A DNA stretch of 52,506 bases, taken from assembly GCA_017503235.1 (NCBI GenBank), contig JAFVTL010000013.1:1-52506 (forward strand). The letters are read 5' to 3'. The translations under genes were made by a program, and so were the position numbers. Numbering within the stretch: position 1 is the first letter of the stretch; the number at the start of each line of letters is the position of its first letter. Below, one piece after another: positions 1,306 through 33,673 of this stretch. The notes under the pieces were generated by a model. It saw only the letters and a program-made list of their open reading frames with translations, made no database searches and was not told where the DNA came from. The stretch comes from Bacteroidaceae bacterium (GTDB lineage Bacteria; Bacteroidota; Bacteroidia; Bacteroidales; Bacteroidaceae).

Positions 1306-1318
1306 GTCTTTTAAGTTA

Positions 1319-8802
<7,484 letters not shown>

Positions 8803-8824
8803 AATATTCGAGTTACAGATAGAA

Positions 8825-10777
8825 TTATTTTTCAAGAACAACACCGCCATTGAAAGGAATAGTCAGTGTCACTTCCTGCTTCTTGTTTATCTTCAATGGC
8901 TTCAAGCTACCATTCAAGTCCTTGTCATCGCTATAGTATTGTACCGTTTCACCCGCTGCAAACATCGGGAGTTTCAATTTCAGTTTCAATGTTTCCTTCT
9001 GACCATTGATAGCAACCACAAACCACTTGTTACCATGACGGCGAGCCATTACGACATATTTGCCAGGATAGCCATCAATGAAACGAACTTCATCCCAAAG
9101 TGTAGGAACTTGCTTCATAAAATTGATAGCCCATTCAGGAGCATCGGTCAAGTTGTTAGGAGCCATGGCAAAATGTTGCACCGGACTTTGGAACAATACT
9201 GCAGTAGCAAGAGCAAACACATCCGAAGTCTTACGCTTGCTTCCTCGAGGTCCATTATTGGCGTTATAGAACTTATTCAAAGTGCTGCCTCCAAAATCCA
9301 TGCTACCCACGACATTGCGGATGAACGGATGGATACAGGCATTGAACGCTTCATTATCGCAATTACCCTGAGAGAAATGCAAGTTTTCACTGGCAAGGAC
9401 TGCTTCACTTGACGCATAATTCGGATACATACGTTCCCATCCGCGAGGTAAAGTGCAACCATGGAAAATACAAAGAATACCATAATCATTGGCGTCAGCC
9501 AAAATATCTTCATAAAGCTTCATAGTCACTTGCTTGTCGCCTCCGAAAAAGTCTACCTTTATACCTCGTATACCGATACTTTGCATCCATTTCATTTCTT
9601 TACGACGGGCGATTGTGTTATCCATAATGCCACGAGGTCCCTGTGGGGCATCGTTCCAATAACCATTGGAGTTATACCAGAGATAGATTCCTACCCCCTT
9701 CTTGGCCCCATATTCTGCCAATTCTTTGATTCTTTCGCGACCGATTTGAGTATCCCACAAAGCATCAATCAGTATGGATTCGTAACCCATAGCAGCCGAG
9801 AAATCGATATAACGTTTTTGTTCATCATAATTGGTCGCCCCATCCATACCGATAATCCAACTCCAAGAGCCTCGTCCATAAACGTATTCTTGAGAAGGTT
9901 CATAAAGCGGCTTCACCAAATCGAAAGGAACGGTTGTTTCAACTATCGGAGCCAACGTTTCACCGATGGTGATGGTGCGCCATGGAGTTTCACCCGGCAA
10001 TGGAATACCTGGAGCTACCGTTCCATTTCCATTGTTTTCTTCGGGTTGCGGATAACCGATTGTATAAAGACCATCTTTATGCCCCATCAAACGACTGGCA
10101 CAATAGGCACTACTTACACCTGTTTCCGAAATAAGTATCCAACCTTTATCATTGTTCTTGAACAAGCAAGGGAAGGTATAACCTTCTCCCCAACCATTCT
10201 TTCCGACAGGCTCATCCAACGTATATCCAGTTTCATAACTTGGATAAGTGCGGGCGAAACCGCCCATCGGTTTAACTTGCGGACAAAGGAAAGTCGTGGT
10301 ACCTTGCGGCATCATAAAGCCTGTTGATTCGCTTTCTACGATACAGCTGAGGGTTTGCCTTTGAGGATACATGCGATATTTGAAAGCCACATCATTATTT
10401 CCGATACTGAACACAACATCAAATATCACCTTTCCTTCTTTTTCAAAAGTATAGGTTACTTCGTTAGCTAAATAATTAGCCCGTCTTTGTTTGATGGTAG
10501 GAACGGTATAGTCCTCATCGATTTGTTTCACTATTACATCACCATCCTTCAGATTCATTCCTTGGGTAAAGTCACCGATATTCGTTTTCAAACCTAATGG
10601 TGAATTTTGAATAAACTCCACTCCATTATAACTGACGCAATACGATGGCTTGCCACCTTCGTCTGATACGGTAACAACCATTTTGCCATCAGGGCTATTG
10701 AACGTTTTCTCTAAAGCAAAAGCAGGCATCGAAAGACAAAGGCCTGCCACAATAATTCCTAATGTATTTTTCATCAT
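8825..10777 (-). CDS. GH97 glycosidase, retaining alpha-galactosidase type
   Basis: About 650 residues with signal peptide (ending AFALEK). The GH97 layout is complete: N-terminal beta-sandwich, central (beta/alpha)8 barrel and C-terminal beta domain. GH97 splits into inverting SusB-like alpha-glucosidases, which lack an Asp nucleophile, and retaining alpha-galactosidases, which have one. Here GIKVDFFGGDKQ supplies an Asp at the barrel position, so I predict the retaining, alpha-galactosidase-like type. This agrees with galactosylated side chains suggested by the GH95 enzyme downstream. The start may be either of two adjacent ATGs (10777 or 10774). Confidence 0.9.
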   Translation of the reverse strand: MMKNTLGIIVAGLCLSMPAFALEKTFNSPDGKMVVTVSDEGGKPSYCVSYNGVEFIQNSPLGLKTNIGDFTQGMNLKDGDVIVKQIDEDYTVPTIKQRRANYLANEVTYTFEKEGKVIFDVVFSIGNNDVAFKYRMYPQRQTLSCIVESESTGFMMPQGTTTFLCPQVKPMGGFARTYPSYETGYTLDEPVGKNGWGEGYTFPCLFKNNDKGWILISETGVSSAYCASRLMGHKDGLYTIGYPQPEENNGNGTVAPGIPLPGETPWRTITIGETLAPIVETTVPFDLVKPLYEPSQEYVYGRGSWSWIIGMDGATNYDEQKRYIDFSAAMGYESILIDALWDTQIGRERIKELAEYGAKKGVGIYLWYNSNGYWNDAPQGPRGIMDNTIARRKEMKWMQSIGIRGIKVDFFGGDKQVTMKLYEDILADANDYGILCIFHGCTLPRGWERMYPNYASSEAVLASENLHFSQGNCDNEAFNACIHPFIRNVVGSMDFGGSTLNKFYNANNGPRGSKRKTSDVFALATAVLFQSPVQHFAMAPNNLTDAPEWAINFMKQVPTLWDEVRFIDGYPGKYVVMARRHGNKWFVVAINGQKETLKLKLKLPMFAAGETVQYYSDDKDLNGSLKPLKINKKQEVTLTIPFNGGVVLEK

Positions 10778-10839
10778 ACGATTTATGATTAAAGACAAAA
10801 AGGTTACCATCCACTAAGAATGGTAACCCGATTCATTCA

Positions 10840-12015
<1,176 letters not shown>

Positions 12016-12042
12016 TTATTTATTTCAATACAACAAATTCAT

Positions 12043-13254
<1,212 letters not shown>

Positions 13255-13590: not shown

Positions 13591-14706
13591 TTACTCGCCC
13601 AACAATTCTTTCACAAATTGCTTGGGTTCATAATTTCTGTCAAACAACAAAGGATAATCCGTACGGCCTCGCATCGGAAAATCATTCTTCCATGAATCTC
13701 CGTCGGTTACTCCCCAAAAGGTCACACGGGAGATATGACGGGAATGCTTGACAAACAAATTCATAAATTCCATCATCCGCTTGTTCCATGCCTCCAATTC
13801 ACGGGAAGGCAATTCATTGGGATAAGGATTCATGCTTTGCTCAAAACTGACCGTATCCGTAACATTCGCACTATATCTCACCATAGGCAATGCGCTCATG
13901 TCAAATTCTGTAATCATAACCTTCACATTCAATTTGGAGAAAGCTTCTATACTGGCTTCAAAATCCGATATTTGAGGATACTCCATCCCCACATGTCCTT
14001 GCATGCCCACCGCATCAATGCGGATTCCGCGCGCCTTCAAATCTTCCACCAACTTGATAACCGCACGACGTTTTCCTTCGAAGTGCATGTTGTAATCGTT
14101 ATAGTAGAGTTCTGCTTCTGGATCGGCCTCGTAGGCGTATTGGAATGCCAATGGTACAAACTCTTCACCCAAGATCTGATAGAACTTGCTATTGCGGTAG
14201 CTTCCATCTTCAAGGATAGCTTCATTGACGACATCCCACCCATGCACACGTCCTTTATAGCGCTTTACTATGGTTGTAATATGATCCTTCATTCGTTGTT
14301 TCAACACCTCAGGCGAAACATCTGCCCCATTTTCATCCGTACAGAACCAGGAAGCAAGTTGGGAATGCCAAATCAAGCAATGTCCTACAACGAACATCCC
14401 ATTTTCTTCACCAAATGCCACAAAACGGTCTGAAAGTTCAAAGTCATACACATTCTCCTCCGGATGTATAATCATACATTTCATGCAATTCTCAGGAACA
14501 ATAGAATTGAAGTGGGTCTTGACAATATCGAGTGCCGCAGAGTCCTGACCCTGCAATTGCAAATGATTGATGGCCACTCCGACCAGGAAATGATTGCCCA
14601 ATACATTTTTTAAGTTACGCTCGCTTTCTACGACTGGCTTTCCACTACAAGCCATCAACAACATACATGCCAACGATGCGGCGTACAATAACTTTTTGTT
14701 TTTCAT
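13591..14706 (-). CDS. GH10 endo-1,4-beta-xylanase lipoprotein
   Basis: A 371-residue single-domain GH10 xylanase that cuts the beta-1,4-xylan backbone. The acid/base Glu is residue 162 (WDVVNEA) and the nucleophile Glu is 267 (ITEFD); GHCLIWHSQ and YYNDYN are further GH10 signatures. The N-terminus ends in a lipobox (LLMACSG, Cys20), so it is membrane-anchored, probably at the cell surface. It has no carbohydrate-binding insertion, unlike the second GH10 at 18,207-20,480. It stands alone between its own promoter/operator and its own terminator. The predicted leader is about 148 nt, long compared with the other two xylan units. Confidence 0.95.
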
Positions 14707-14860
14707 GACAGGTATTACTTATACTATTCCAATACTATTTCATCGATTACGATAGGCTTGAAACCTAACGACCAAAATCCAACTATATATAAATGAGAAA
14801 ATAACAACATTGTCAATAGACAAAATATCTTCATGGTATTCGTGCATTTTAATAGCACTT

Positions 14861-14968
14861 CAAAATTAGAGATTCTAAAAGGAATAAGAAAGAAACGGCA
14901 TTACAACGTCTTTCCACAACGTTACATGTAGATTACTTTTTGTTACATATCCCTTTGTTAATATTACA
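14861..14968 (-). promoter_or_regulatory. Promoter and four-copy TGTAA operator of the GH10 gene
   Basis: The minus-strand -7 box TAATTTTG lies at 14,861-14,868. TTACA (TGTAA in transcribed sense) starts at 14,901, 14,922, 14,943 and 14,964: four copies with an exact 21-bp period. Thirty-two nt separate the first copy from the -7 box. The remainder of the 400-bp gap (14,707-15,105) contains only AT-rich sequence with no credible gene. Confidence 0.72.
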
Positions 14969-18206: not shown

Positions 18207-20480
18207 TTATTCACCTGCCAATGCTTCAGCGAAGCTTGCATAGATATGCTTGCGCTGGTAGCCTTGAGTCCAAATACCAACAGGTTCATCTGCTCTCCAA
18301 CCAGAGGTCTTCGGAGCATCTGTCAAACACCATTGTGTGATACCATATTGTTGAGCTTCTGGTATAATGTTCAAATAGTTAGAAATGATGAACTTGTAGA
18401 ATCCTGCCATTTGCTTCTGTTGTTCTTCAGTTACTTGTCCGGTTGTCAAAGTTGTACCGGATGCATCTACATAGCCCATATCCAATTCTGAAATCTTCAC
18501 CAACTTGCCAGTTTCTGCCATCAATTCAAACATATTGATGATAGCAGCTTCCTGAGCAGCCTGAGTTTCTGCATTCCCGTGGAAGGATACGTGCATCTGA
18601 GTACCGATACCGTCAATTTGGGTTACACCGTCAGCTTCCCAAGTTTCAATCCAATGGATCAAACTCTTCAGCTTCTTGTTACCATCCCACCATGATTCGA
18701 GGTTGTAGTCGTTGATAAACAACTTCAAAGGTTCTGTACCTTGATAGTATTCGCGAGCCTTAGCTACAACGAAACGTACATATTCTTCATCACCGAGATA
18801 ATCTTGCCAGTAGAAGTTGTTGGCAGGATCACCATTGTCTGCTGACCACAAGTCGTAGTATTCACCACCACTACCAGAAATAGGTTCGTTAACAACATCC
18901 CAAGTAGTTACGTAACCTTCTGTAGCAGTCATCATACCCTTAATCCAGTTGTCCATCGCCCACTTCAATGTGTCAGCCTTTTCTTCCGGAGTCAAAGGAA
19001 TTACACCACCACCAGCAGTTTCAACAATATACTTGTCAATGATACGAGCCGGTCCAGGATTACCACGCTTTTCCTTAGCGACAAAGTTAGCTGTTCCAGT
19101 TGGATCGTCACAATTACCATTGACAATCAGTTCTTCACCATTCAACTTGAAGCTGAGGTTATCGAAGTAATAGCGGTTAGCTTCTCCAAAATCGTTCAAG
19201 TTGAAAGCAAATGAATAACATCCGTCTTGTTCAGAGGTCATTGAACCAGAGCTTGTGTACGTTTCCCATTCAGGTGTGAAGTTTATAGTTCCGATTGCTG
19301 CCCAATGTTTGTATTCTCCCGGTGCGTTGTGAGTTTGAGTTCCAGCACTTGCTTCCTTATCAGCACGAACATCCATAGATACAGACCATGAGTCACCAGT
19401 TTTGAAAGAAACGCCTTCGAATACCAACCAGAACTGAGTATCCCATGGAGCTTCTACCATATTGTCCGATTCTACCATGATACAAGTACGTTCCACTTCT
19501 TCAATGGATGGCTTTTCTTCCATGACTGTGTATTCATAGCTGTCAACAATGCGCGAAGGAACCATGTCACCTCGTTTTTCCTTAGAAACAAAATTGGCAG
19601 TACCTTCCGGATCATCCATATTACTATTGGTTATCAGTTCTTCACCATTAACGCTGAAACTAATGTTATCGAAGTAATACTTATTAGCTTCTGCAAAGTC
19701 ATTCAAATTGAAGGCAATAGACATTCCACCAGCAGCTTGAGCATCAAATGTACCTGTTTTCTCAAATGTTTTCCATTCTGTTGTAAATTCTACATTACCG
19801 ATGGCATTCCAATGTAAATATGCACTTGGCTCAGCATGGACTTGAGTACCAGGGGAAGCAGCTTTGTCTGCGCGTACATCCATTTTTACAGCCCAAGTAT
19901 CACCTTCATTGAACTTCTTGTCAACTACAATCCAAAACTGGGTATCCCAAGGATATTCAGCCATATCATCCGATTCAACAATGATGCAAGTACGTTCTTC
20001 TGTTTTAGTTACAGGAACCAATTCTGGAACGTAATTCTCATCAATTTTATCAGCAATGATACCATTCAGATACTTATTGTTCTGTTGGGAGTGCCATGCT
20101 AAGGTATGACCATAAATGGTCGTTCCTGCATCTCTAGCAGCAGTCACAAAACTTTGTACTGTACCAAAGTTCATCTTACCATTGTTGTCCACAACTGATG
20201 AGTATTTCATGGCATTGCCTGCAGTCACTTCATCGAAGTTGGAATTCACCAAACGGAATGTTAATCCCTGTCCGGAATAATCCTTAGCATCGATGGCGGC
20301 TCCCAACTTCATGTTGGGATTCGCCTTGTAGGTCTTCAAAGGTTCATAGTCATTGAGGTATTCCAATGAACCCATGTTTGCCGGTTTCTGTACATCAAAC
20401 GCCAACGGGTCGTTGTCTACACATGAGGTAGCCGCAAACGCCAGAAGCAGAGCACCGAATAAATGTTTTGTATATTTCAT
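18207..20480 (-). CDS. xyn10C: GH10 endo-xylanase with two inserted carbohydrate-binding modules (Xyn10C type)
   Basis: A 757-residue surface lipoprotein (lipobox FAATSCVD) whose GH10 barrel is split. The first part (LGAAIDAKDY to GHTLAWHSQ, about residues 55-140) is interrupted by two homologous modules (about 160-310 and 330-490), each starting ERTCI and containing VESD and PWDTQFW: CBM4/9-like xylan-binding domains. The barrel resumes with the acid/base Glu532 (WDVVNEP) and nucleophile Glu665 (ISELDMGY). This arrangement is the hallmark of the Xyn10 protein encoded at the end of the conserved xus cluster. It binds xylan and cuts it at the cell surface, feeding the XusA-XusD importers. Confidence 0.93.
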   Translation of the reverse strand: MKYTKHLFGALLLAFAATSCVDNDPLAFDVQKPANMGSLEYLNDYEPLKTYKANPNMKLGAAIDAKDYSGQGLTFRLVNSNFDEVTAGNAMKYSSVVDNNGKMNFGTVQSFVTAARDAGTTIYGHTLAWHSQQNNKYLNGIIADKIDENYVPELVPVTKTEERTCIIVESDDMAEYPWDTQFWIVVDKKFNEGDTWAVKMDVRADKAASPGTQVHAEPSAYLHWNAIGNVEFTTEWKTFEKTGTFDAQAAGGMSIAFNLNDFAEANKYYFDNISFSVNGEELITNSNMDDPEGTANFVSKEKRGDMVPSRIVDSYEYTVMEEKPSIEEVERTCIMVESDNMVEAPWDTQFWLVFEGVSFKTGDSWSVSMDVRADKEASAGTQTHNAPGEYKHWAAIGTINFTPEWETYTSSGSMTSEQDGCYSFAFNLNDFGEANRYYFDNLSFKLNGEELIVNGNCDDPTGTANFVAKEKRGNPGPARIIDKYIVETAGGGVIPLTPEEKADTLKWAMDNWIKGMMTATEGYVTTWDVVNEPISGSGGEYYDLWSADNGDPANNFYWQDYLGDEEYVRFVVAKAREYYQGTEPLKLFINDYNLESWWDGNKKLKSLIHWIETWEADGVTQIDGIGTQMHVSFHGNAETQAAQEAAIINMFELMAETGKLVKISELDMGYVDASGTTLTTGQVTEEQQKQMAGFYKFIISNYLNIIPEAQQYGITQWCLTDAPKTSGWRADEPVGIWTQGYQRKHIYASFAEALAGE

Positions 20481-20511: not shown

Positions 20512-21531
20512 TTACTTGGCTGCTGTGCTGAACCATTCAGACTTCACACCTCTGTCACGCCAAACCAAAGTGTCTTTTGTCTGACACTTGATACCGGCAT
20601 ATTCCAGCGTGTAATCCAAATAGAGTGCATCGCGGTCTTCATTACCCCAGCTCTTCTTGTCACCATCTACTACATATTGTCCACTACCGGTTGCTGTTAC
20701 ACCTTCCGTGTCGGAAGTGATGGTACAATTTCCGCTGGCATCAAAAGTAAGCAACAATACAGCATTCATGTTTTTACCTTCTGCATCCTTGGCCGGGTGA
20801 GCCCAAGCGATTGTATTCAAAGAACGGGTAGTGATTCCGTCCACTACTTCATCCTTTTCTACATATTGTTTGTGACGTACGGTAGTTCCTTCGATTTCAC
20901 CACTGTAGTTGTCTACACCGCGACGAAGATAATTGGCGTCATACTGGTTGATGTACTTCACAGCATACAGAATGTAATCCTTTGGTAATACGTCCCAATC
21001 ACCAGCTACACCGTATTTAGGATTAGATAGCATAGGAACACCACTCAAGATAGAGTCTGCACCGTTTACGCTGGTCATCTTTACAGGAATTACATAGTTG
21101 GTGTTTACAGCTTCTGGGTCAGCAAAGAAAGCATCAGTCAACTGTACGGTTACACCACCCAGGATTTCCCCCTTCTTGATAGTAATTTTATCACCAGAAA
21201 GCGTATAATAAGATGAAGGCATAGCTACCACATCCTTACCGTTTCCTTCGAAAATCAAACCATCACAAATGGAGTTATCGACGGTAATGCCGATTTCTAC
21301 ATCCTTCTTGTTCGAGTACACACCACCCATGGTAGCCATAATTTGGCATTGGTGGAGGTTATCAAGTGTGGTGTCGTAAAAGTCCTCACCCAAAGTAATG
21401 GTACGAATCGGGCTCTGATATGCGAAATATACAGTTGTGTATTCGTAATCAGGGAATTCCCAATCACCGTTTTCACAGGAAGAGAACATACCACACGCCA
21501 ATGTCAACAGTATAAATAATACTTTTTTCAT
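20512..21531 (-). CDS. xusE: XusE-type surface lipoprotein (DUF1735-like)
   Basis: A 339-residue lipoprotein (lipobox MFSSCEN) in the position of SusE/XusE between xusD and xyn10C. The N-terminal half has the DUF1735 pattern (YTTVYFAYQSPIRTITLGED, then IEGITVDN-like strands and MPSSYYTLSGDKITIKKGE). The C-terminal part (about 180-339) is a separate beta-rich domain. No catalytic motif is seen. It likely binds xylan at the surface as an accessory glycan-binding protein. The gene is 26 bp after xusD and 31 bp before xyn10C. Identification rests strongly on gene order. Confidence 0.8.
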   Translation of the reverse strand: MKKVLFILLTLACGMFSSCENGDWEFPDYEYTTVYFAYQSPIRTITLGEDFYDTTLDNLHQCQIMATMGGVYSNKKDVEIGITVDNSICDGLIFEGNGKDVVAMPSSYYTLSGDKITIKKGEILGGVTVQLTDAFFADPEAVNTNYVIPVKMTSVNGADSILSGVPMLSNPKYGVAGDWDVLPKDYILYAVKYINQYDANYLRRGVDNYSGEIEGTTVRHKQYVEKDEVVDGITTRSLNTIAWAHPAKDAEGKNMNAVLLLTFDASGNCTITSDTEGVTATGSGQYVVDGDKKSWGNEDRDALYLDYTLEYAGIKCQTKDTLVWRDRGVKSEWFSTAAK

Positions 21532-21557
21532 TTTTCTACAAATTTACTTGTTCAACA

Positions 21558-23360
21558 TTACTTCCAGCCGTCGTTTTGCAACAATTCGCTGAATTTAACA
21601 ACTTCACTGTATGGTAGTGGACCATAATACATATAATCTTTATAGTCACGCACTTCCACATCCGGAATTTCAGTATAAGTAGTTCCGGTGATACTCATAC
21701 CCTTAGCTGTTTCGGTCAAAGAAACTTTCCAACGGCGGAGATCCCAGAAGCGATGGCCTTCGAAGCAGAGTTCCAAACGACGTTCGTTACGAATCAATTC
21801 ACGCATCATGTCCTTGTCGTTGGCGCAAGCGTCCAAATAAGCGTCAGTAGTACCTACACAAATACCAGCACGTTCTCGAATAGCCTTGATGACATCGTAT
21901 GCAGTAAATCCGTGGTTTCCACCCTTCGGGCCCCAAGCTTCATTGGCAGCTTCAGCAAAACCTAAAAACATTTCTGTATAACGAATCATCGGCTTATAGT
22001 GATTGGTATTTACTGTTGCGTTAGAGCTTGGATTTGTTTCCTGAACCAACAATTTTCTCATATAGTAACCGGTACGAGTAGATTGTTCTGTCTTATTTAC
22101 AGCATCAATGGTACCAGTACCTTCATCTCCGGCATCAGTAGCTATATAAATAGGAGTATTCTGTATACCCGCAGTCTGGCCATTATACAAAATATAAAGA
22201 GCTAAACGTGGGTCACGATCCTTATAGGGATCTTGAGGATTATAACCGCTACCGGAAGCTGAAATCGGCAAACCATTAGCCATTGGGAAGGCATCTACCA
22301 AGTTTTGAGTCGGATTGACACGACCATTACCTGACAAACTCGGAGGGAAGTTATCTCTTTCGAGAGTTACACTTGGATCTTGGCGGTTATCTCTCCAGAG
22401 GATTTCTTTCGGATTGATACCTGTTTCAAATTCCTGAATAGCCTTACTATCTGCATACCAGATATGACCAATCGGGTCAACTTCTGCTACCGGATTGCTA
22501 CCCAAACCTTTCAGTACCGTTGCCATTTGGTTGGCGGCTTCTTCCCAAGTAATGCCTGAACCTGCGCTATATGCCGGGCTGGCAGCCAGCAAAGCAGCCT
22601 GGGCACGGATGGCCTTGGCGATGCGTCCGTTCATACGATTGGAAGCCGCTTCATCAAATACACGGTTGTATTGAGAATAAGTTGCACCCAATGTTGAATA
22701 CTTAGAGGGGACATTGCTATCGCTATCCACAGCCTTGTAATCTTCTGGAAGAAGTTCAAGTGCTGCATCCACATCATCGTAAATTTGTTGGATACATTCA
22801 GCGAATGTCGCACGAGGCTTGTTGAACTCAGAATCCGCATTCTCGTATTCGGTTACAATAGGAATACCCAACAATTCATTGCCTACCCAACCGGCTTGTT
22901 GAAGTAACAACAGATAGGTGTAAAGTGCACGCATACCATAGGCTTCACCTTTGAAACGCATAGCGAACATTTCTCTTACAACAGGGTTGTAAGCCCATTC
23001 TACCTTGTCAGCTAATTCAATAGTTTGATTCAAGTATTGGATGGAACCGCGCAAGTTTTGCCAATTGGACATCGGGTTGTTGGATGCTGTCCAACCACCG
23101 GTCGCCATACGACGATAGTTGTTACCTGGGTCATTGGATACCGCATCATCGGTTGCCACATCATTGAATGACCAGGATGTCAACGGATTACTGATATAGG
23201 CATGTGTCAGAATACCCACCGCCCAGTCTGGTAGCACTTCCAATGCTGTCTCATCCTTATGGTTTTCGACAGCCGGTTCGAATACATCGTCACAACTTGC
23301 GAACGACGCCATCAAAGGAGCTACCAAAGTAAGTAATATTGCTTTTCTTATCTTTTTCAT
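21558..23360 (-). CDS. xusD: SusD/RagB-like xylan-binding lipoprotein, second pair
   Basis: SusD-family outer-membrane lipoprotein of about 600 residues; it caps the TonB-dependent transporter encoded upstream and presents xylo-oligosaccharides to it. The lipobox is FASCDD. Family signatures include EAYGMRALYTYLLL, the region IAKAIRAQAALLAASPAY and the C-terminal block RNERRLELCFEGHRFWDLRRW. The open frame extends to 23390, into the xusC stop; the signal peptide starts at MKKIRKAILL, so I place the start at 23360 (23372 is possible). Confidence 0.93.
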   Translation of the reverse strand: MKKIRKAILLTLVAPLMASFASCDDVFEPAVENHKDETALEVLPDWAVGILTHAYISNPLTSWSFNDVATDDAVSNDPGNNYRRMATGGWTASNNPMSNWQNLRGSIQYLNQTIELADKVEWAYNPVVREMFAMRFKGEAYGMRALYTYLLLLQQAGWVGNELLGIPIVTEYENADSEFNKPRATFAECIQQIYDDVDAALELLPEDYKAVDSDSNVPSKYSTLGATYSQYNRVFDEAASNRMNGRIAKAIRAQAALLAASPAYSAGSGITWEEAANQMATVLKGLGSNPVAEVDPIGHIWYADSKAIQEFETGINPKEILWRDNRQDPSVTLERDNFPPSLSGNGRVNPTQNLVDAFPMANGLPISASGSGYNPQDPYKDRDPRLALYILYNGQTAGIQNTPIYIATDAGDEGTGTIDAVNKTEQSTRTGYYMRKLLVQETNPSSNATVNTNHYKPMIRYTEMFLGFAEAANEAWGPKGGNHGFTAYDVIKAIRERAGICVGTTDAYLDACANDKDMMRELIRNERRLELCFEGHRFWDLRRWKVSLTETAKGMSITGTTYTEIPDVEVRDYKDYMYYGPLPYSEVVKFSELLQNDGWK

Positions 23361-23389
23361 AATTACATTCATTTTAGCTGATTCAATCA

Positions 23390-26212
23390 TTAAAATGTAG
23401 CTTTCAGACCAAGGTTGAAGAAACGAGTCTGTGGAGCACTGCCCACATTCATTTCCAAGTGCTCACGTTCCTTGGCAAAAGTCAACAAATTGTAACCGGC
23501 TGCAAATACGCTCAGACCTTTTACGAAACTGTTGCTGAAAATCTGTTCCGGCAGGTCGTAGGTTATCTGCACCTGACCCAAAGTGATGCGGTCTGCATCG
23601 TACATCCAAAAGTCAGAATTACGATTGTTATTGGCACCATCGGTTGTAGTCAGACGAGGATAGATAGCTGTAGCGGCTGTCTCCGGAGTCCAAGTATAAC
23701 GGGCGATTTCCGAATACTTGCTATCAGCACTCAACCAATAGTAAGAACTGTTCTTCATGCCCTTACCGCCGAAGAATCCATTTGCCATCGCAAAGAAGGT
23801 GAAGTCTTTCCACTTCAAAGTAAGGTTTATGCCCAAACGGAACGGAGTGTCATGACGTCCCAAAAATACTTGGTCGTGATCGTCAATCTGACCATCGTTA
23901 TTTTGATCCTTATAACGGAGGTCACCCGGCTTCACTTCACCGAAAGTCTGGCTCGGAGCATTAGCGATTTCTTCTTCGCTGGTGAAGAATCCCAAGCTTT
24001 CAAGTCCCCATAGACCATTTAATTCACGACCTGTTTTGTATTCGTATGCATTGCTAACATCAGCTTCATCACGTTGTGTAGCTTCTGTGGTATAATACAT
24101 ACCGCTTACACCCAACTTGGTTTCCACTTCACCCAATTTGAACTTGCCGTAAACACTGAAATCAAATCCTTGACGAAGGTCGTTGTTATAATTAACATAA
24201 GGAATAATATTTGAAGTTGGATAGCCATTCTGAATGAAGTAAATCGGATAAAGAGCATCAGTCTGAGTAATACCACCATTCATTTCACTACGGAAATAGT
24301 TGAAATCGAAAGTCAATGCTTGGTTCCATAATGAACCGCGTAAACCAATATTGACTTCTTTTCGTTGGATATAGTCCATGCTCGGATTAGAACCACGTTC
24401 AAATTCTGTTGCACTTTCACCTTCATTGTCCGCCCATGAATACCAACCACCACGCTTGATAACCGCTTTCCAAAGATAATAGTCACTGATATCCAAATCC
24501 TGTTCAATGATACCATAAGAAGCAGTCAACATCAAATCATCGAATGCTGTATCATCAAAGAAGCTTTCAGCGGTCGGACGCCATCCTAAAGTTACGGTTG
24601 GAGAAAAGCCCAAACGTTGCTTGGTTGGCAACTTGGTTGAATAGGGCAATGCAGCACTGAAGTCCACATAATACTTCTGCTTGTAGTTATAAGAAGCCTG
24701 TGCACCCAAGTTTACATTAGTTGTACGATGGTATTCACCATTACGCTGAGTCTGCCATACGTTACCCAATACCATAGCGAACACATTGTGACCTTCACCG
24801 AAACTACGGTTGTAGTCGAATTGTGCAGATACGTTATAAGTGTAACGATAAGTTGTATTACTGATGTTTTCATTAACACCCTTGCTGTCTACAGTCTCAT
24901 GAGTGTTCACTTCACCAATCATTTCTTTACCATTATAGCTGGTCCATATTGGTTCAAAAATACCATATTGGTTGTCGTAACCCTGATTATAAGTAGTTGA
25001 GTAGTCGATACCGTAACGAGCACGGAACATCAATCCCTTTGTCAAGCCCTTCAAATCAACATTAAACAGCGTGTTGAACTGGAACTGACGGCTAACGAAC
25101 TTGCTGTCACCAGCAGCATATGCATCAGCAATCGGATTTGTTTTATCTTGCAAGGTACCACCGAAGAAGTATTTGCCATCAATCAGATAGTTACTGTTGT
25201 AGACGGTTGCCAAAGTAGCTTCTGCACTCGGGTCGAGGTATTCCAATGGAATCAGTGGGGCAACACGGTGCGGACGAAGGGTGGCTGCATTACTCCACCA
25301 ATTACCTTTAGCTGTATATGAATCATAGAATGTTACATTCGCATCAGCCTGAGCGGTCAAGATGTCGTTCAGTTTCATATCGATATTACCACGAACAAAG
25401 AAACGGCTGGTGTAGTTGTCCTCATTCTTACCGACTGTCACCAAATCACCTTGACGATAATAACCGAAAGTTGTATAATACTTCACACGTTGGTTACCAC
25501 CAGTTACTTCTACGATACCTTCAGTACGGTTATAGGCTTTTTTGATGTAGTCTGAAGAATACATATCCAAGTTCGGATAACGGTATGGATTGATACCAGA
25601 ACCATGATTGTAAATTTGTTCTTCAGTATAATAATCCGATACTGGACGATTTGGATTATCGCTATACAAGGCCTTATTGTAGTATGTCATGTATTCTGCG
25701 GAACCCATGTACTTCGGAAGAGACTTGGCGAAATGGAAACCTGAATTGATGTGCAGGTTGATTCTCAAGTCACCTTCCTGACCACGCTTGGTGGTAATCT
25801 GGATAACACCCTTAGCGGCACGCGGACCATAGAGAACTACAGCCTGAGCACCCTTAAGAATGGTAATTTGGTCTATTTCTGTAGGAAGTACGTTGTTGGC
25901 ATCACGAACCATACCATCCACTACTACCAGATACTCATTGTTACCCCAGATATTGCCGTTTACACCACCCACTACGTTTTCAACGAAGTCCAAACTGTAG
26001 GTTGTGTATGCTTTCTTTGACAATTCTTCCACGTCGATGACAGAAACACCACCAAGAAGGTCTTTCTGGTCTGTGGAACGGAATGCCACATGTACTTTGT
26101 CGCCGTTGTCCGCCAACAGTTCTTCAGAGGTCAGCTCATCTTGAGCATACGCACTCATGGAACCGAAAGCGAGCGTTGCGCAAACTACGAGTCCTTTATA
26201 TATATGTTTCAT
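23390..26212 (-). CDS. xusC: SusC-like TonB-dependent transporter, second pair (short form)
   Basis: TonB-dependent outer-membrane transporter of 940 residues: signal peptide (MSAYAQ), plug domain (about 40-150; LLGGVSVIDVEEL, YGPRAAKGVIQITTKRG) and a C-terminal beta-barrel ending in an aromatic residue (LGLKATF). It lacks the carboxypeptidase-regulatory-like N-terminal domain that the first transporter (28,194-31,304) has, and is about 100 residues shorter. It should import xylo-oligosaccharides with the SusD protein encoded next. The reduced N-terminus matches XusC-type proteins of the conserved xylan cluster and may change how it couples to TonB. Confidence 0.93.
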   Translation of the reverse strand: MKHIYKGLVVCATLAFGSMSAYAQDELTSEELLADNGDKVHVAFRSTDQKDLLGGVSVIDVEELSKKAYTTYSLDFVENVVGGVNGNIWGNNEYLVVVDGMVRDANNVLPTEIDQITILKGAQAVVLYGPRAAKGVIQITTKRGQEGDLRINLHINSGFHFAKSLPKYMGSAEYMTYYNKALYSDNPNRPVSDYYTEEQIYNHGSGINPYRYPNLDMYSSDYIKKAYNRTEGIVEVTGGNQRVKYYTTFGYYRQGDLVTVGKNEDNYTSRFFVRGNIDMKLNDILTAQADANVTFYDSYTAKGNWWSNAATLRPHRVAPLIPLEYLDPSAEATLATVYNSNYLIDGKYFFGGTLQDKTNPIADAYAAGDSKFVSRQFQFNTLFNVDLKGLTKGLMFRARYGIDYSTTYNQGYDNQYGIFEPIWTSYNGKEMIGEVNTHETVDSKGVNENISNTTYRYTYNVSAQFDYNRSFGEGHNVFAMVLGNVWQTQRNGEYHRTTNVNLGAQASYNYKQKYYVDFSAALPYSTKLPTKQRLGFSPTVTLGWRPTAESFFDDTAFDDLMLTASYGIIEQDLDISDYYLWKAVIKRGGWYSWADNEGESATEFERGSNPSMDYIQRKEVNIGLRGSLWNQALTFDFNYFRSEMNGGITQTDALYPIYFIQNGYPTSNIIPYVNYNNDLRQGFDFSVYGKFKLGEVETKLGVSGMYYTTEATQRDEADVSNAYEYKTGRELNGLWGLESLGFFTSEEEIANAPSQTFGEVKPGDLRYKDQNNDGQIDDHDQVFLGRHDTPFRLGINLTLKWKDFTFFAMANGFFGGKGMKNSSYYWLSADSKYSEIARYTWTPETAATAIYPRLTTTDGANNNRNSDFWMYDADRITLGQVQITYDLPEQIFSNSFVKGLSVFAAGYNLLTFAKEREHLEMNVGSAPQTRFFNLGLKATF

Positions 26213-26241
26213 TGTTATTCTATTTTAACGTTAACAAATTC

Positions 26242-28182
26242 TTACCAACCCGGATTTTGGCCAAAGCCTTCAAACATCTGTACATCGTCAGTCAGAATTG
26301 GCAACCAGTAATGCTTGGCAATCAAACGACGTTCTACCAATATGTCTTCATCCCAGTTCAGCACCTTGTTTTCCTTCGGGTCAACTTCCGGATCCAATGG
26401 CTGAGCACGGTCGAAACGCTGGGTAGTCTTGATGTTGAATGGATATTCGGTCAAAAGCAACCAACGACGGAGGTCATTGAAACGATGGGCTTCGAATGCC
26501 AATTCAACGGCGCGTTCACGAATCAATTCCGGCATGAACACTTCAACATTGGTCGTATACTTTTCAGCAACAGGGCCTACACCGGCACGTTCACGGATGG
26601 TATTGATTGCTTCAACGGCATTCTTCTTGAATGTTGGGCTTGCAGTAGTCGGTCCATAAGCTTGTGCAGCTGCTTCAGCATACAACAAGTATACTTCAGC
26701 CAAACGCAACCAGCTAAGTTTCAGATAGAGAGCGTTACCCCAACCATCATGAACCTTGTCCCATCTGTTAGAGAGCAACGGAATGAACTTGTAGTTCAAA
26801 TAACCGGTACGGGTATGGTGGTCTTGGGAAGCCACATATTTACCGCCATTACCCAAATCTGCATACTGAAGTTTGATAGACAGCGAGTCTTTTTCATCAG
26901 TGATATCAACCATCTTAATTCCATCATAAATGATGTCGTGATAGAAACGAGGGTCGCGGTCTTTCCAAGGATGAGTCTTGTCAAAACCGGAATCCGGGTC
27001 GTTCAGCGGCATACCGTTGGCCATACCGTAATAATTTACATAGTTGGCAGTCGGACACAAAGTGATACCGTCACCTGAAGCCATATCATTAATCTGATAA
27101 GAGTTGGACTGACGCCAGAATGAGTCACCATTATCATATTGCGGACTGCGTACAATTGCTTCTGTACTACCCGGCATCAACCAGTTCTGCTTGTGGGTAT
27201 AGAACAAGTCACTGTACTTTTCGAATGGAACCAACTTGTATTGAGTTTCACCATTTTCAACCATGGCCAATACTTCACCCAATACATCGGCTGCCTTCTT
27301 GGCATATTCTTTATTATAGCCCATATTGATGCTTTGGATTTCACCGTTGCTTCCGAAATTAACGGTAGACTTTCCATTAACTCCCTGTTCCATCAAAGGA
27401 CTGGCTGCATAGAGGTAAGTCTTGCCGAGATAAGCCAAAGCCCAAATCTTATTGGCACGCAATTCATTGTTTCCATCTGTACGACGACCGATTTCAGTGT
27501 CGTCCCAGTCAACCGGTAACAAATCTGCGGCAGCCTTGAAGTCAGCAGCCATCTTATCTGCATTTTCCTGATAAGTTTCACGAGGCAAATCAAAATTTGT
27601 TTCGTTAGATGGAATTGCATAATCAATGTAAGGCATACCACCCCAATAAGTAGTAATATTGAAATAGAACCAAGCGCGCATAAAGTGGAGCTGTCCTTTT
27701 ATCATGTCGCGTTCCGCTTGTGAAGCATCTGTCATCAAACCATTTTCAAGCGCTTCAAAAGCCATGTTACACTTACGGATACCGTACCAGTGGCTGCTCC
27801 AGATGTTCTTTCCGAAACGAGCTTGTTCAGTATTGGCTTCTACACGATACAAATAGTTGGATTGCTTGGCACGAGTATCCCCCAAAAAGGCGTCACGATA
27901 TGTACCACGGTCCACACTATGACCGAACATATAGTCAGCTTCGTTGAGGGTCAAGAGTTCATCTTCTCCCCAGTTGAAAGAACTTACCCAGAAATGTCTC
28001 ATGACATCGGGTCCTAAGTTGTACATTTCTTCTACAAATCCCTGGAAGTTCTTGAAGTTCTTGAAGGCTTCATCTTCTCCAATGATAGCATCGGGGGATT
28101 TGTCCAAATAATCGGTACAGGATGTGATACCCATCAAAAGGGCAGCTATACCGCATAATAATATATTGAATTTATTTTTCAT
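26242..28182 (-). CDS. xusB: SusD/RagB-like xylan-binding lipoprotein, first pair
   Basis: SusD-family lipoprotein of about 646 residues partnering the transporter encoded just upstream. The lipobox is MGITSCTD. Typical SusD features are KGQLHFMRAWFYFNITTYWGGMPYID, the TPR-like helices around NELRANKIWALAYLGKTYLYA, and the C-terminal LIRERAVELAFEAHRFNDLRRW. It binds xylan chains outside the cell and hands them to XusA. The start is at 28182 or at 28188, both a few bases after the xusA stop; MKNKFNILL looks the better signal peptide start. Confidence 0.93.
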   Translation of the reverse strand: MKNKFNILLCGIAALLMGITSCTDYLDKSPDAIIGEDEAFKNFKNFQGFVEEMYNLGPDVMRHFWVSSFNWGEDELLTLNEADYMFGHSVDRGTYRDAFLGDTRAKQSNYLYRVEANTEQARFGKNIWSSHWYGIRKCNMAFEALENGLMTDASQAERDMIKGQLHFMRAWFYFNITTYWGGMPYIDYAIPSNETNFDLPRETYQENADKMAADFKAAADLLPVDWDDTEIGRRTDGNNELRANKIWALAYLGKTYLYAASPLMEQGVNGKSTVNFGSNGEIQSINMGYNKEYAKKAADVLGEVLAMVENGETQYKLVPFEKYSDLFYTHKQNWLMPGSTEAIVRSPQYDNGDSFWRQSNSYQINDMASGDGITLCPTANYVNYYGMANGMPLNDPDSGFDKTHPWKDRDPRFYHDIIYDGIKMVDITDEKDSLSIKLQYADLGNGGKYVASQDHHTRTGYLNYKFIPLLSNRWDKVHDGWGNALYLKLSWLRLAEVYLLYAEAAAQAYGPTTASPTFKKNAVEAINTIRERAGVGPVAEKYTTNVEVFMPELIRERAVELAFEAHRFNDLRRWLLLTEYPFNIKTTQRFDRAQPLDPEVDPKENKVLNWDEDILVERRLIAKHYWLPILTDDVQMFEGFGQNPGW

Positions 28183-28193
28183 TTCCATTCAGA

Positions 28194-31100
28194 TTATAAA
28201 GTGATTCTCAAACCTAAATTAAAACGTCTCTGTGTCGGATAAGCACTCCAACCACCGGTATTTGATTCACGGTCGTCCGGCATATCGGTCCACAAGAAGA
28301 GGTTGTTACCATTCAGGTATACTCTCAAGCTCTTCAAACCTACAGCCTTCAGCCACTTCTGTTGGTTGAATGTATAGGCCAATTCGGCATACTTCAAGCG
28401 GAGGTATGAACCATCGAACAAGAAGCGGGTACCTTCTGCATAACTCGGTTGCTTGGTTGTATAGCGTGGCAGAGGAACATCAGCATTCTGATTGTCCTTT
28501 GACCAGTAGGAACCTTCTTCGAATACAGAGTTACGTACACCGCCGTCAAAGCCTCTCAAACCTACACTACGAGTTACATTGTTCACACCATAGAACTGCA
28601 CGAAGAAGCTCCAACCTTTATAGTCAAAACCAATCTGAGCGTTCATGGTATTTTGAGGAGAACCAGTAAATCCGTATGGGATATTATCGTATTGTGTAAT
28701 CACACCGTCACCGTCATAGTCAAGGATGATGTAGTTACCCGGCATACGGTATTCATCGTTTGAATCAAGAGGAGTAGAACCGTACAATTCATCCCAGTTG
28801 TTATAGTAGCCATAATCCACATAAGCATAAGTTTGGCCGATAGCCTTGTTAGCGCTCTTTTGGTATTCAGGCTTCAACTTCGGGTCGTCACGAGAAATAA
28901 TCTTGTTTTCAGCATGAGTGTACGATGCGTTACCCCAAAGACGCCAGTCTCTGTTCAACTGCTTGTTCCAACGGAGTTCGATTTCGTAACCTTGGCTTTC
29001 TACTTCACCGAGGTTGGCAACAGGTGCAGTTGCACCGAAGTAAGAAGGAACAGCACGGTCACCACCATTCATCAAAATGTCTGTACGCTTTTCCTTGAAG
29101 TAGTCCACCGAACCGGCAAGCAAACCACCGAGGAAGGAGAATTCAGCAGCCACGTCAAACTTGGTAGCAACTTCCCACTTCACATCCGGGTTACCCAATT
29201 GGCTTTGTGAATAGATTTGATAGATAGAAGCACCACCGGTCAAGCCTTGAGTAAATGTACCTCCCTTGTTCCATGTATCCATATACAACCAACGGCCATT
29301 GACATTGTCATCACCAATCTGACCCAAAGAAGCACGGAATTTGAACATATCCAGCCATTTGAGGTTCAATTTCTTGATGAAAGGTTCTTCAGAAAGCATC
29401 CAACCTACAGCTCCTGATTGGAAGAATGCGAAACGATTGTCTTCAGAGAACTTTTCTGAACCGTTGTAAGCACCGTTGTATTCGAACATATAGCGGCTTG
29501 CATAGTCGTAAGTTGCACGGAATACCCAGTTTTCACGGAAATAAGGAAGCATACTGCCTGTAGCATACTGTTCACGGCTGAAGTTACCCATAGCACCCAC
29601 ATTGTGGTTACCGAACTTGCGGTTGTAGTTCACCTGAGCCGAATAGTTGATACGACGATAAGCACCACCTACACCACCGGCAGAAGTCGACCAGTTATTG
29701 TTGTTCTTGTAGTCAAAACGGTTGGTAGCAGTTGTAGTTGCCTTGAAATATTCAATACCTGTTTCCGGGTCAATCCACTTATATTCGTTTTCTTCCCAGT
29801 CATTGGTATCATCCACACCACGTCCACCTTCAGAGAAGCTGTTGTCGAATGCCAATCTCAATTGTGCGCTCAAGCCCTTGGTCACGAAATCCAAGTTCTG
29901 ACGCAAAGTAAAGTCGGTCATCAACTGGTCATTGGTGTTGATACCGATACCACCGGTTGACAGATATTCCATGGAGTTCTGAGCTGCCTGAGTTTCAGCC
30001 GGACGATAGTAACCGAAAGTACCATCGCTATACTTCGGGCGGAAAGCATCCGGTGCGATACCGTAGAAAGCAGACCAAACCAAGTTTTCATACTGAGACA
30101 TGGTAGCCTTTCTTACACCATGAGAACCGGACAAGTTCACAGAAAGTACAGTAGTATTGGTCAAGTTGAAGTCCAAGTTTGAACGTACGTTGATACGGTC
30201 GTAACCGAAGCCCGGTTCATAACCACGGGTGTTTGTCACCTTCTTATAGATGTCACCTTCGTGGGTGTAATCCACGTTTGCAAAGTACTTCACGAACTTG
30301 GTACCACCTGAAATACTAACGTTTGCATTGTAAGTCAAAGCTACATCCTTCAACAATTCGTCTACCCAGTCAACGTTCGGATAACGTTCATATTCAGCCA
30401 AGTTAGCCGGATAACGATACTTTCTCAATGTTTCATACGGAGTATACTTTTCCCATGCGGAAGGCATAAAAGGCAATTCGCTTTCGATAACTTCATTACG
30501 TACACTTAACGCATCGTAAGAGTCCATCAATTGCGGCAACTTTGAATAAGTCTTGAAAGTTGTGCTTGCGTTGATGTTAACTACAGCCTTACCTTCTTCA
30601 CCACGCTTGGTATTAATCAAGATAACACCGTTCGCACCACGCACACCGTAAACAGCTGTTGCAGAAGCATCCTTCAATACAGAAATAGAAGCTACGGAGT
30701 TGATATCCACGCTACCCATTTCACGTTCGATACCATCGACGAGAATCAAAGGCTTGCTGCTGTTCCAAGATGTAGCACCACGGATGATGATTTCAGGATC
30801 TTCCTGACCTGGCTGACCGGTAGTAGTCATAGTTACCACACCCGGAAGGTTACCAGACAATGCCTGACCCAAGCTGGTTACACCACCGGTACGTTCAAGC
30901 ACCTTGCTGGTTGTCTGAGTAATCGCACCTACTACAGAAGCTTTCTTCTGCTGGCCGAAACCTACTACAACGACTTCTTCCAACTGTTGGGAGTCATCTT
31001 CCAATTCAATTTTCATGAGTCCTTTGGACACTTTCACTTCTTTTGTCTGCATACCGACAAAAGAGATAACCAAGACAGCTTTGTCATTAGGCACGTTCAG

Positions 31101-31304
31101 TTCGAAATTACCGTCTATATCTGAAATTGTACCTACTGAAGTGTTACTTTTTAAAACAACTGAAGCACCAATGACGGGTTCACCGTTGCTGTCTACAACA
31201 ACCCCTTTCACCGAGAGGCCCTGTGCCATTGCATTCATGCAGCAGAATAGCATAAGGAGAATCAGCGAAGGAATCGTCCGAATTTGTTTCATTACATTTT
31301 TCAT
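28194..31304 (-). CDS. xusA: SusC-like TonB-dependent transporter, first pair
   Basis: Full-length SusC family protein of 1036 residues. Order: signal peptide (MNAMAQG), carboxypeptidase-regulatory-like domain (about 30-110; VKGVVVDSNGEPVIGASVVL), a TonB-box-like stretch (EEVVVVGFGQQKKASVVGAI), plug (about 130-240; YGVRGANGVILINTKRG) and 22-strand barrel ending RRFNLGLRITL. It imports xylo-oligosaccharides across the outer membrane. A 162-bp spacer separates it from the GH43 gene upstream; I find no TAnnTTTG box in that spacer, so it is probably read through from the GH43 promoter. A six-base-pair stem (AGACTG/CAGTCT) lies in the spacer. Confidence 0.95.
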   Translation of the reverse strand: MKNVMKQIRTIPSLILLMLFCCMNAMAQGLSVKGVVVDSNGEPVIGASVVLKSNTSVGTISDIDGNFELNVPNDKAVLVISFVGMQTKEVKVSKGLMKIELEDDSQQLEEVVVVGFGQQKKASVVGAITQTTSKVLERTGGVTSLGQALSGNLPGVVTMTTTGQPGQEDPEIIIRGATSWNSSKPLILVDGIEREMGSVDINSVASISVLKDASATAVYGVRGANGVILINTKRGEEGKAVVNINASTTFKTYSKLPQLMDSYDALSVRNEVIESELPFMPSAWEKYTPYETLRKYRYPANLAEYERYPNVDWVDELLKDVALTYNANVSISGGTKFVKYFANVDYTHEGDIYKKVTNTRGYEPGFGYDRINVRSNLDFNLTNTTVLSVNLSGSHGVRKATMSQYENLVWSAFYGIAPDAFRPKYSDGTFGYYRPAETQAAQNSMEYLSTGGIGINTNDQLMTDFTLRQNLDFVTKGLSAQLRLAFDNSFSEGGRGVDDTNDWEENEYKWIDPETGIEYFKATTTATNRFDYKNNNNWSTSAGGVGGAYRRINYSAQVNYNRKFGNHNVGAMGNFSREQYATGSMLPYFRENWVFRATYDYASRYMFEYNGAYNGSEKFSEDNRFAFFQSGAVGWMLSEEPFIKKLNLKWLDMFKFRASLGQIGDDNVNGRWLYMDTWNKGGTFTQGLTGGASIYQIYSQSQLGNPDVKWEVATKFDVAAEFSFLGGLLAGSVDYFKEKRTDILMNGGDRAVPSYFGATAPVANLGEVESQGYEIELRWNKQLNRDWRLWGNASYTHAENKIISRDDPKLKPEYQKSANKAIGQTYAYVDYGYYNNWDELYGSTPLDSNDEYRMPGNYIILDYDGDGVITQYDNIPYGFTGSPQNTMNAQIGFDYKGWSFFVQFYGVNNVTRSVGLRGFDGGVRNSVFEEGSYWSKDNQNADVPLPRYTTKQPSYAEGTRFLFDGSYLRLKYAELAYTFNQQKWLKAVGLKSLRVYLNGNNLFLWTDMPDDRESNTGGWSAYPTQRRFNLGLRITL

Positions 31305-31466: not shown

Positions 31467-33200
31467 TCATTTTTTAGTGGCGTACAGCGCAATGGTTGTA
31501 CCGGTAAATCCTCCAGCTACAGCTGTAGACAGATAACCGGCGTCTACATTATCGCAAAGGCTCTTCCATTCTTTACCTTTATCTATAGAATAGAGGAAAT
31601 CATAGGTCAGTCCTTTGGATACGACTTTCAAGTCAAAGCAAGTAGCGTCTGCCGGCACCGGATTTGTAGCCAGAACCTTATCTTCACGTCCGATTTGAGT
31701 CAAAGTAATCTGGCGTCCGTTTTCCGATTGGCTAACAGCCATGAAATATTGATGGAATTCATCCTTGAAGAGCAAAAGACCTGCTTTCTCTTCGGCGCTT
31801 TCAGGATTGAAATACATTCTTGTTTCTGTCTGGAACTCATGATGCTGCATACGGCGGCATACCAAAGCCGGCACGTCTCTTTCCTTGGAACTCTTTTCAC
31901 CACACTTCAAGGTAAGGTATCCCGGAGTTTCGGTCAAAGAATAGAGGTCGGTGGCTGGACCACGAAGGGTCATCCATTGCATATCCAAAATTGAATCTCC
32001 AAATTCTTCAGACACGCTGAAGTTACCAAAAGTGACGTTTTCACCGCGCTTCACGCCCTTACGGCATTGAATCATCGGTACCACTTCGTCACCTTGCGTG
32101 ATGATGGGGAATCCGTCTTCGCTCCATTCTACAGGCAAGAGGAATGTTTCGCGTCCCAAGTTTTCGAAACGGTTGTTGATAGGACGACATGCCAAGAATA
32201 CGGCCCACCAGTCTCCTTCAGCCGCTTGAACGAGGTCTGCATGACCGGCGCAAGTGATAGGATTCGGGCGGTTGGGCGACAAATGACGCTGAGTCAAGAT
32301 AGGATTGCGTTCCCAAGCCTTGAAGGGTCCCCAAGGAGAATCGCTTCGGAAAATCACTTCCGAATGGTTGACGCTGGTACCACCTTCTGCGTCCATCAAG
32401 TAATACTTGCCGTTGATTTTATACATATGCGGACCTTCAATCCAGATAGGCTTTTCTTCTGGATGAACGCCTTTGTTCACAATAATCTTGCGAGGGCCCA
32501 CCATCTTGTCGTTCTTCCAGTCAAACTCCTGAACTCGGATAGTACGGTGTCCGTCATATTCAGCCTTGAAATCGGGTGCCTCGTCGTTATTAACCACATA
32601 AGCCTTGCCATCTTCATCAAAGAAGATGCTAGGGTCAATACCTCCTACTTCAGGGACACGAATCGGGTCGCTCCATTCGCCGAACGGATCTTGAGTCTTC
32701 ACATAGAAGTTGCCAGCACCGACATTGGTTGTAATCATGTAGTAGGTCTTGTTGTGAGGATTATAGCTGATGGCCGGCGCAAAGATACCGCCGCTAACAT
32801 GCTGACCTACCATGTTGACCAGTTGGGAAGGACGGCTCAACACATGCCCCACCTGCTTCCAGTTTACCAAGTCACGGCTATGGAAAATAGGCACACCGGG
32901 GAAATAGGTGAACGTCGAAGTCACCAAAAAATAATCGCCTTCACCGTTGGTACAGATGCTCGGGTCAGAATACCAACCCGGAAGGATAGGCGTATAGAAA
33001 CTATTTTCGCCTTGTAACGGATTTTCTTTGTAGAAACTGTCGTCACCCTGATAAGTGAAATAATCAAACAAAGCGACCGACTTACCGATTTCAGGAGCCT
33101 GTCCGCTTCCTCCCTGCATACCACATGAGGCTATCATACCGCCCATACCGGCAACAAGGACCAGCGTTGAGGCGAATTTGGATAGAACTTGGTTTTTCAT
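31467..33200 (-). CDS. GH43 beta-xylosidase/alpha-L-arabinofuranosidase lipoprotein
   Basis: First gene of the xus operon: a 577-residue lipoprotein (lipobox MIASCGM). The GH43 propeller (about residues 65-370) carries the three acidic residues: base Asp79 (WYSDPS), Asp189 (GGIDPSIF) and acid Glu255 (WIEGPH). The C-terminal beta-sandwich (about 390-577) is the usual companion domain of xylosidase-type GH43 enzymes. It should remove xylose or arabinose from xylan or its oligosaccharides; which sugar cannot be told here. Its promoter carries the shared operator, and the leader is about 34 nt. Confidence 0.92.
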   Translation of the reverse strand: MKNQVLSKFASTLVLVAGMGGMIASCGMQGGSGQAPEIGKSVALFDYFTYQGDDSFYKENPLQGENSFYTPILPGWYSDPSICTNGEGDYFLVTSTFTYFPGVPIFHSRDLVNWKQVGHVLSRPSQLVNMVGQHVSGGIFAPAISYNPHNKTYYMITTNVGAGNFYVKTQDPFGEWSDPIRVPEVGGIDPSIFFDEDGKAYVVNNDEAPDFKAEYDGHRTIRVQEFDWKNDKMVGPRKIIVNKGVHPEEKPIWIEGPHMYKINGKYYLMDAEGGTSVNHSEVIFRSDSPWGPFKAWERNPILTQRHLSPNRPNPITCAGHADLVQAAEGDWWAVFLACRPINNRFENLGRETFLLPVEWSEDGFPIITQGDEVVPMIQCRKGVKRGENVTFGNFSVSEEFGDSILDMQWMTLRGPATDLYSLTETPGYLTLKCGEKSSKERDVPALVCRRMQHHEFQTETRMYFNPESAEEKAGLLLFKDEFHQYFMAVSQSENGRQITLTQIGREDKVLATNPVPADATCFDLKVVSKGLTYDFLYSIDKGKEWKSLCDNVDAGYLSTAVAGGFTGTTIALYATKK

Positions 33201-33240: not shown

Positions 33241-33326
33241 CAAAACTAAATAATCGCGAGCTAAGAATCTTTGCGAATTGTTACATGTAATTTTTATATT
33301 ATTACATATTTTAATAGTATGTTACA
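33241..33326 (-). promoter_or_regulatory. Promoter and three-copy TGTAA operator of the GH43-xus operon
   Basis: The minus-strand -7 box TAGTTTTG lies at 33,241-33,248, about 41 bp before the GH43 start codon. TTACA (TGTAA in the transcribed sense) begins at 33,281, 33,302 and 33,322, spaced 21 and 20 bp. Thirty-two nt separate the first copy from the -7 box, as at the other two xylan promoters. The rest of the gap to 33,660 is AT-rich with no credible gene. Confidence 0.72.
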
Positions 33327-33673
33327 ATTATTTTCGTTTCCGTTTCGCGTTATTTCACATATATCTGTGTTTCAATTAATTAAGAATGTAACATACATAT
33401 ATTGGAAGATATACACAAAAAGTATTGCCAAATCAGACAAGGAAACCCTACAGAACCCAACAAGTTCACAAAATATGAATCAGATGAATCATAATGCGCT
33501 AACCTTCTGATTCACAACATCAAACCCTGACACTTTTGACAGATGTTTTTGATACCTATTGGTTCTGGCTTAATATAGGAGCATCAAAATATATAAGGAA
33601 GGATTTTATGCACAAAATAGCTCCAAACGAGCAGAATCTGAACACCCATGACGCATTATTCGGATGTTTTTGT

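Follow-up and report, generated by a model that had tools for sequence, protein, structure and literature searches.

The window, as the whole 52,506-nucleotide stretch analysed is called here, is contig C19 of a 2.6-Mb draft genome (G000; 145 contigs, 84% complete) of a Bacteroidaceae bacterium, and carries three units of xylan genes on its minus strand. The xus unit opens with a GH43 gene whose product has a beta-xylosidase C-terminal domain (31467..33200), continues through genes for a TonB-dependent receptor, a SusD, a second receptor, a second SusD and a DUF5627 protein (20512..31304), and closes with a large GH10 protein (18207..20480). A separate GH10 gene lies at 13591..14706, followed by an esterase/GH unit (370..13164) encoding two putative esterases, a GH97, a SASA-esterase/GH2-type protein, a SASA-esterase plus GH95, a SASA-esterase plus GH43, and a BD-FAE. 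All of these genes were assigned with Pfam, and from their strand and spacing we infer that the esterase/GH genes form one operon. Behind the xus promoter, a stretch at 33452-33500 is repeated at contigs C58, C94 and C143 of the same genome with 87-98% identity; this dispersed repeat probably runs on to about 33620.

Ahead of each unit, on the minus strand, stands a candidate operator composed of TGTAA half-sites (TTACA on the plus strand). The xus operon has an array of three (33281..33326, with half-sites at 33281-33285, 33302-33306 and 33322-33326), which was delineated from the sequence and from related promoters. Four precede the GH10 gene (14901..14968, the first plus-strand bases of TTACA being 14901, 14922, 14943 and 14964), an arrangement also present in genome G030, and a pair precedes the esterase/GH operon (13229..13254, with half-sites at 13229-13233 and 13250-13254). 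In Bacteroidetes, the housekeeping promoter consists of a TAnnTTTG -7 box and a TTG -33 element at 19-21 nt from it. The corresponding -7-type boxes in the window, again on the minus strand, are TAGTTTTG for the xus operon (33241..33248), TAATTTTG for the GH10 gene (14861..14868) and TTACTTTG for the esterase operon (13189..13196). An earlier reading of the window, made from the sequence only, had listed the nine TTACA positions, their 21-bp steps (20 bp once) and three 32-nt gaps to the box, every one of which was recovered exactly; its description of the boxes as TAnnTTTG-like holds without mismatch for two promoters, but the third is off by one base. The GH10 start codon is found ~154 nt from its box (14707-14860 lying between), whereas this distance is ~40 nt in the xus unit; a long leader on the GH10 transcript is therefore possible.

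No TTG is present at 19-21 nt from the box in any of the three window promoters. The same was seen more widely in an alignment of 24 promoters, hand-picked and partly orthologous, of which only three, none from the window, have TTG at this distance. In this alignment the distal 21-bp unit has the form TGTAACA-N6-AAA, of which the proximal unit retains just TGTAACA; the distal AAA block, which formed no part of the search, is found in 22/24, 24/24 and 19/24 of these selected promoters at its three positions.

Frequency of the pattern against controls

Within the window, six TTACA pairs occur at 20 or 21 bp; when dinucleotides were shuffled within 500-bp blocks, 300 replicates gave 0.26 such pairs on average and never more than 3. 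The opposite orientation gave no pair at these spacings. Across the genome, the bare TTACA-N15/16-TTACA pair showed no excess, with 22 matches (six from the window) and 22 in the reversed control. Short words alone therefore say little, and the TTACA/TGTAA pair, which is not specific by itself, was rejected as a genome-wide signature. The sequence-only reading had also proposed a whole-genome search for the full rule. When run as TGTAACA-N14-TGTAACA-N30-TAnnTTTG with up to three mismatches, this rule was rare and mostly located at xylan genes, giving seven matches in the source genome, three of them in the window, against one in the control. At this tolerance, and with a one-base shift of the box permitted, the three named promoters are the only places in the window that match.

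The distance to the box was then left free, in a scan of 427 genomes (61 of the genus and 399 drawn from the family, 33 being common to both) that required two exact copies of TGTAACAT at 21-bp spacing and a box at 20-48 nt, counted from TGTAA. This gave 23 strict matches, 21 of which have the box at 31-33 nt and 13 at exactly 32, the other two lying at 35 and 24 nt; the reversed control gave no match in the same genomes. Removing look-alikes left 15 of 17 matches at 31-33 nt. As the genus portion of this free-gap scan overlaps a rule-enforcing scan, the ten matches outside the genus, unused in finding the rule, form the cleaner test, and eight of these fall at 31-33 nt. When the spacing between half-sites was freed, 30 of 48 pairs showed a step of exactly 21 bp, and the control gave 16 matches. 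An origin of the arrays in chance, or in AT-rich sequence, could appeal to the bare pair being at control level across the genome, but is scarcely credible in view of the shuffles of the window and the excess of the full rule over its control, and is contradicted by a distance and a spacing that stay fixed in scans leaving them free.

Conservation and the genes behind the box

Conservation at orthologous promoters, on which the sequence-only reading had staked its proposal, is borne out in both groups of GH43 and xus promoters compared. In 24 of 30 GH43 promoters fetched from the genus, exactly 32 nt separate the box from a half-site and another half-site follows 21 or 42 bp further up, when one mismatch is tolerated in each half-site. 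Three of four Prevotella-type xus promoters (L052, L055 and L056) have TGT(A/T)ACA pairs and a box at 32 or 33 nt; the fourth, L050, has no box that could be found, though a hybrid two-component regulator (HTCS) of the C109 family described below is present, and such HTCSs adjoin the xus loci of both L050 and L052. The SusC promoters of seven loci outside the Prevotella-type group have no box. In G026 the xus promoter is without TGTAACA, having instead GTCRCAT-like words 21 bp apart, and the HTCS of this genome has a divergent helix. Site and regulator might have changed together in this genome; however, the self-match of the promoter at 21 bp does not reach significance (p 0.33), and a scan of the G026 genome (31 matches, 15 in the control) revealed, among the 30 of 31 matches examined, no further promoter in which the two words are accompanied by a box at the spacing of the rule.

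Elsewhere in the source genome, the box heads a run of genes on contig C109 for a DUF5597/GH35-like protein, an MFS_2 transporter, GH10, GH43, a GFO/IDH oxidoreductase, GH67 and an HTCS. On C9 an exact pair lies at a GH115 gene and is separated by 53 nt (32+21) from a box of sequence TATCTTTG. Another GH115 promoter is probably marked by the box found where C42 ends; as this contig stops before any gene, the site was given to GH115 from gene sizes and the gene order in G031. The GH115 gene of G036 has two boxed promoters ~250 bp apart with differing half-sites (L169:3653-3718 and 3899-3964). A variant with TGTATCA in both half-sites is located on C51, upstream of a SusC/D pair that adjoins another HTCS. 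Counting against the operator reading is C115 (L046:7847-7912), where a good TGTAACA pair stands with a weak box and lacks a gene in the same orientation. Near this pair, the other strand encodes a large protein that shares 41% similarity with the big GH10 of the window.

A downstream ORF was found for each of the 23 strict free-gap matches, and 16 were scanned for domains, comprising three GH43, three SusC-like proteins, one esterase, one GH8, one GH115, one protein with CBM4_9, one with a fasciclin domain, four without a family, and a Peripla_BP/HisKA sensor fragment, the last behind the match with the aberrant 24-nt distance. Several of the seven unscanned ORFs begin with residues similar to those of scanned ones. 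Within the window, the genes for PD40 and DUF6057 proteins (15106-18068) have no box of their own; their relatives in G036 and G031 are preceded by a box at 33 nt (L171:11321-11387 and L095:12862-12928), which ties these proteins to the xylan regulon.

A candidate regulator and its rivals

No HTCS was found among the 28 ORFs of the window scanned (63 listed; all ORFs >690 aa covered), and a regulator of this type encoded inside the window was rejected. The HTCS of C109 (1364 aa) has a Reg_prop/Y_Y_Y periplasmic sensor, a histidine kinase, a receiver and an AraC-type DNA-binding domain, and its sequence resembles those of HTCS sensors and of a receiver/DNA-binding fragment whose structures are solved. 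The earlier proposal that an AraC-type xylan regulator reads the box thus gains support from the rarity of the rule, the kept promoters and this protein, though not from an HTCS in the window itself. With a family threshold of E up to 1e-180, C109-family HTCSs occur in 25 of the 61 congeners, and each of these 25 belongs to the 27 that have a GH43 homologue (Fisher 4e-15, a value that ignores kinship). Box matches number 166 (18 in the control) in the 25 HTCS-bearing congeners and 49 (27 in the control) in the other 36. At the threshold used, no HTCS was found in G014 (12 box matches; draft 85% complete) or in G030 (3 box matches, including the GH10 array; draft 80% complete). In G008, the HTCS is located between two boxed operons. 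Of 32 aligned family members, 31 conserve an SR.HL.RK stretch, which we take to be the first recognition helix; the exception is G026, and the stretch differs in the three other full-length HTCSs of the source genome.

The 21-bp direct-repeat architecture has already been published. Motifs predicted for 16 HTCSs of Bacteroides thetaiotaomicron are direct repeats averaging 21 bp, with tandem sites on one DNA face, two turns apart, read as monomers or dimers and placed before polysaccharide-use genes (Ravcheev et al. 2013; PMC3878776, as far as covered). The arrays described here likewise contain direct repeats of conserved sites about 21 bp apart before polysaccharide-use genes, which at the C109 genes and the G008 locus include or adjoin an HTCS gene, and they are conserved before related genes in other genomes, with the exceptions of G026 and L050. 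They differ in having two to four copies, whereas the B. thetaiotaomicron motifs have two sites each; in the parts of that paper covered, the regulator table of the 16 motifs names none for xylan, and a fixed -7 distance was not seen (PMC3878776). The literature searched, mostly open-licence and covered in part, gave no description of the xylan motif or of the 32-nt distance.

Two xylan regulators offer a parallel in role. XynR of Prevotella bryantii is an HTCS needed to induce xylan-use genes (Miyazaki et al. 2003, as cited in PMC8002723, covered in part), and so resembles the present case in being an HTCS for xylan induction where a xus system is present. The literature covered gave no DNA site for XynR, and the likeness to the present case is one of role. 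The sequence comparison covered the HTCSs of two Prevotella-type loci, at 38-39% identity. In Bacteroides xylanisolvens, the single xylan HTCS of PUL 43 is needed for two separate loci, the second of which, like the C109 run, contains GH67, GH10 and a sugar transporter; no operator is described in the parts of the source covered (PMC4855328).

In the light of the rule and its conservation, of the genes that follow it and of its co-occurrence with the HTCS family, the arrays are very likely operators of a XynR-like xylan HTCS, whose tandem monomers would stand in for the -33 element. In the proposed mechanism, periplasmic xylo-oligosaccharide would lead to phosphorylation of the HTCS, whose AraC-type domains would bind head to tail on one DNA face, two helical turns apart; the promoter-nearest monomer, ~30 nt before the -7 box, would contact RNA polymerase in place of the -33 element, and extra upstream half-site copies would recruit more monomers. 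The AAA block and the missing TTG fit tandem AraC-type monomers with the last one beside RNA polymerase, and the two- to four-copy arrays, together with the C9 site at 32+21 nt, fit a 21-bp register. At araI, AraC binds close to the upstream edge of the promoter, on direct half-sites spaced by about 21 bp, an arrangement that the present arrays resemble; in contrast to an HTCS, AraC is a soluble one-component regulator and acts at an E. coli -35/-10 promoter.

Which protein reads these operators is a separate question, and we are confident, on sequence grounds, that it would be an HTCS of the C109 family. A reader of another type, such as a SusR-like protein, an ECF sigma factor, a CRP-like protein or a soluble AraC-family protein, gains some room from a regulator search of the genome that covered HTCSs and from an HTCS reading that rests on sequence. 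It is nevertheless improbable, as the half-sites are direct rather than inverted, the -7 box belongs to the housekeeping type and the co-occurrence is with the HTCS family; moreover, SusR-like sites are 67 or 77 bp apart, against a 21-bp average for HTCS sites (PMC3878776, in the parts covered).

A closer contest is that between HTCSs. The C109 HTCS is probably the main reader, though this is held with less assurance than the assignment to its family, and it is possible, if distinctly less likely, that the operator is the same but the HTCS of C51 is the main reader here, or that C51 and C109 share the role. The helix SRVHL.RKLKELTNQ is common to both proteins and their DNA-binding domains are very similar; C51 is also nearer than C109 to the HTCS between the boxed xylan operons of G008 (55% vs 49%), and G036 (draft 79% complete), with boxed xylan promoters, has a C51-like HTCS (63%) and no C109-like one that was found. 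Against this, the C51 HTCS adjoins only the SusC/D pair with the TGTATCA promoter, it is C109 and not C51 that sits among boxed xylan genes, and in G031 a C109-like HTCS (69%) occurs together with boxed promoters.

The source genome also encodes, on contig C78, an HTCS-like protein of ~800 aa (L041:9536-11941) that stops after the membrane segment and comprises a Reg_prop/Y_Y_Y sensor only, with no kinase or DNA-binding domain found downstream. Similar ~800-aa sensor-only open frames are present in two relatives (G036:C21:137402-139771 and G031:C20:8549-10897), and their similar size suggests that the C78 protein is not a random truncation.

Beyond the xylan regulon

The sequence-only reading had treated the geometry as specific to xylan. 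This stands for the full TGTAACA rule, which is mostly found at xylan genes, but not for the layout, which is shared with the TGTATCA SusC/D promoter and with an HTCS regulon of fructan type in related genomes. The fructan-type locus L165 contains GH32 enzymes and SusC/D, and the matching locus L204 of another genome has an HTCS with a periplasmic-binding sensor. The half-sites of these loci are GATGnAACATT, with the 21-bp step and the -7 box distance of the xylan promoters (L165:315-380 and 7300-7365; L204:5720-5785; L207:9031-9096 and 16016-16081). With the gap left free over 31 allowed values, all eight matches to the fructan pattern have the same gap, against one match in the control. The sites were first found by a geometry-enforcing scan and the free-gap pattern was drawn from those matches, so the eight, which come from five species and apparently two promoters, are neither independent nor unbiased.

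A general rule for HTCS-activated genes of Bacteroidales, in which head-to-tail half-sites of any sequence would lie 21 bp apart, the nearest at 32 (33) nt from the -7 box, with the activator replacing the -33 element, has in our estimation an even chance of being correct. If it is true, sequence could reveal the sites, the start points and the regulons of HTCSs that are still unstudied, a prospect that stems from xylan and fructan regulons with different sensors both fitting the rule. Among the major switches of fibre use by Bacteroidales of the gut are HTCSs, many of which have no known DNA site; the present analysis offers a candidate operator for the xylan switch and a list of genes expected under its control, and the spacing rule may be transferable to further HTCSs as well as to inducible promoters for commensals.
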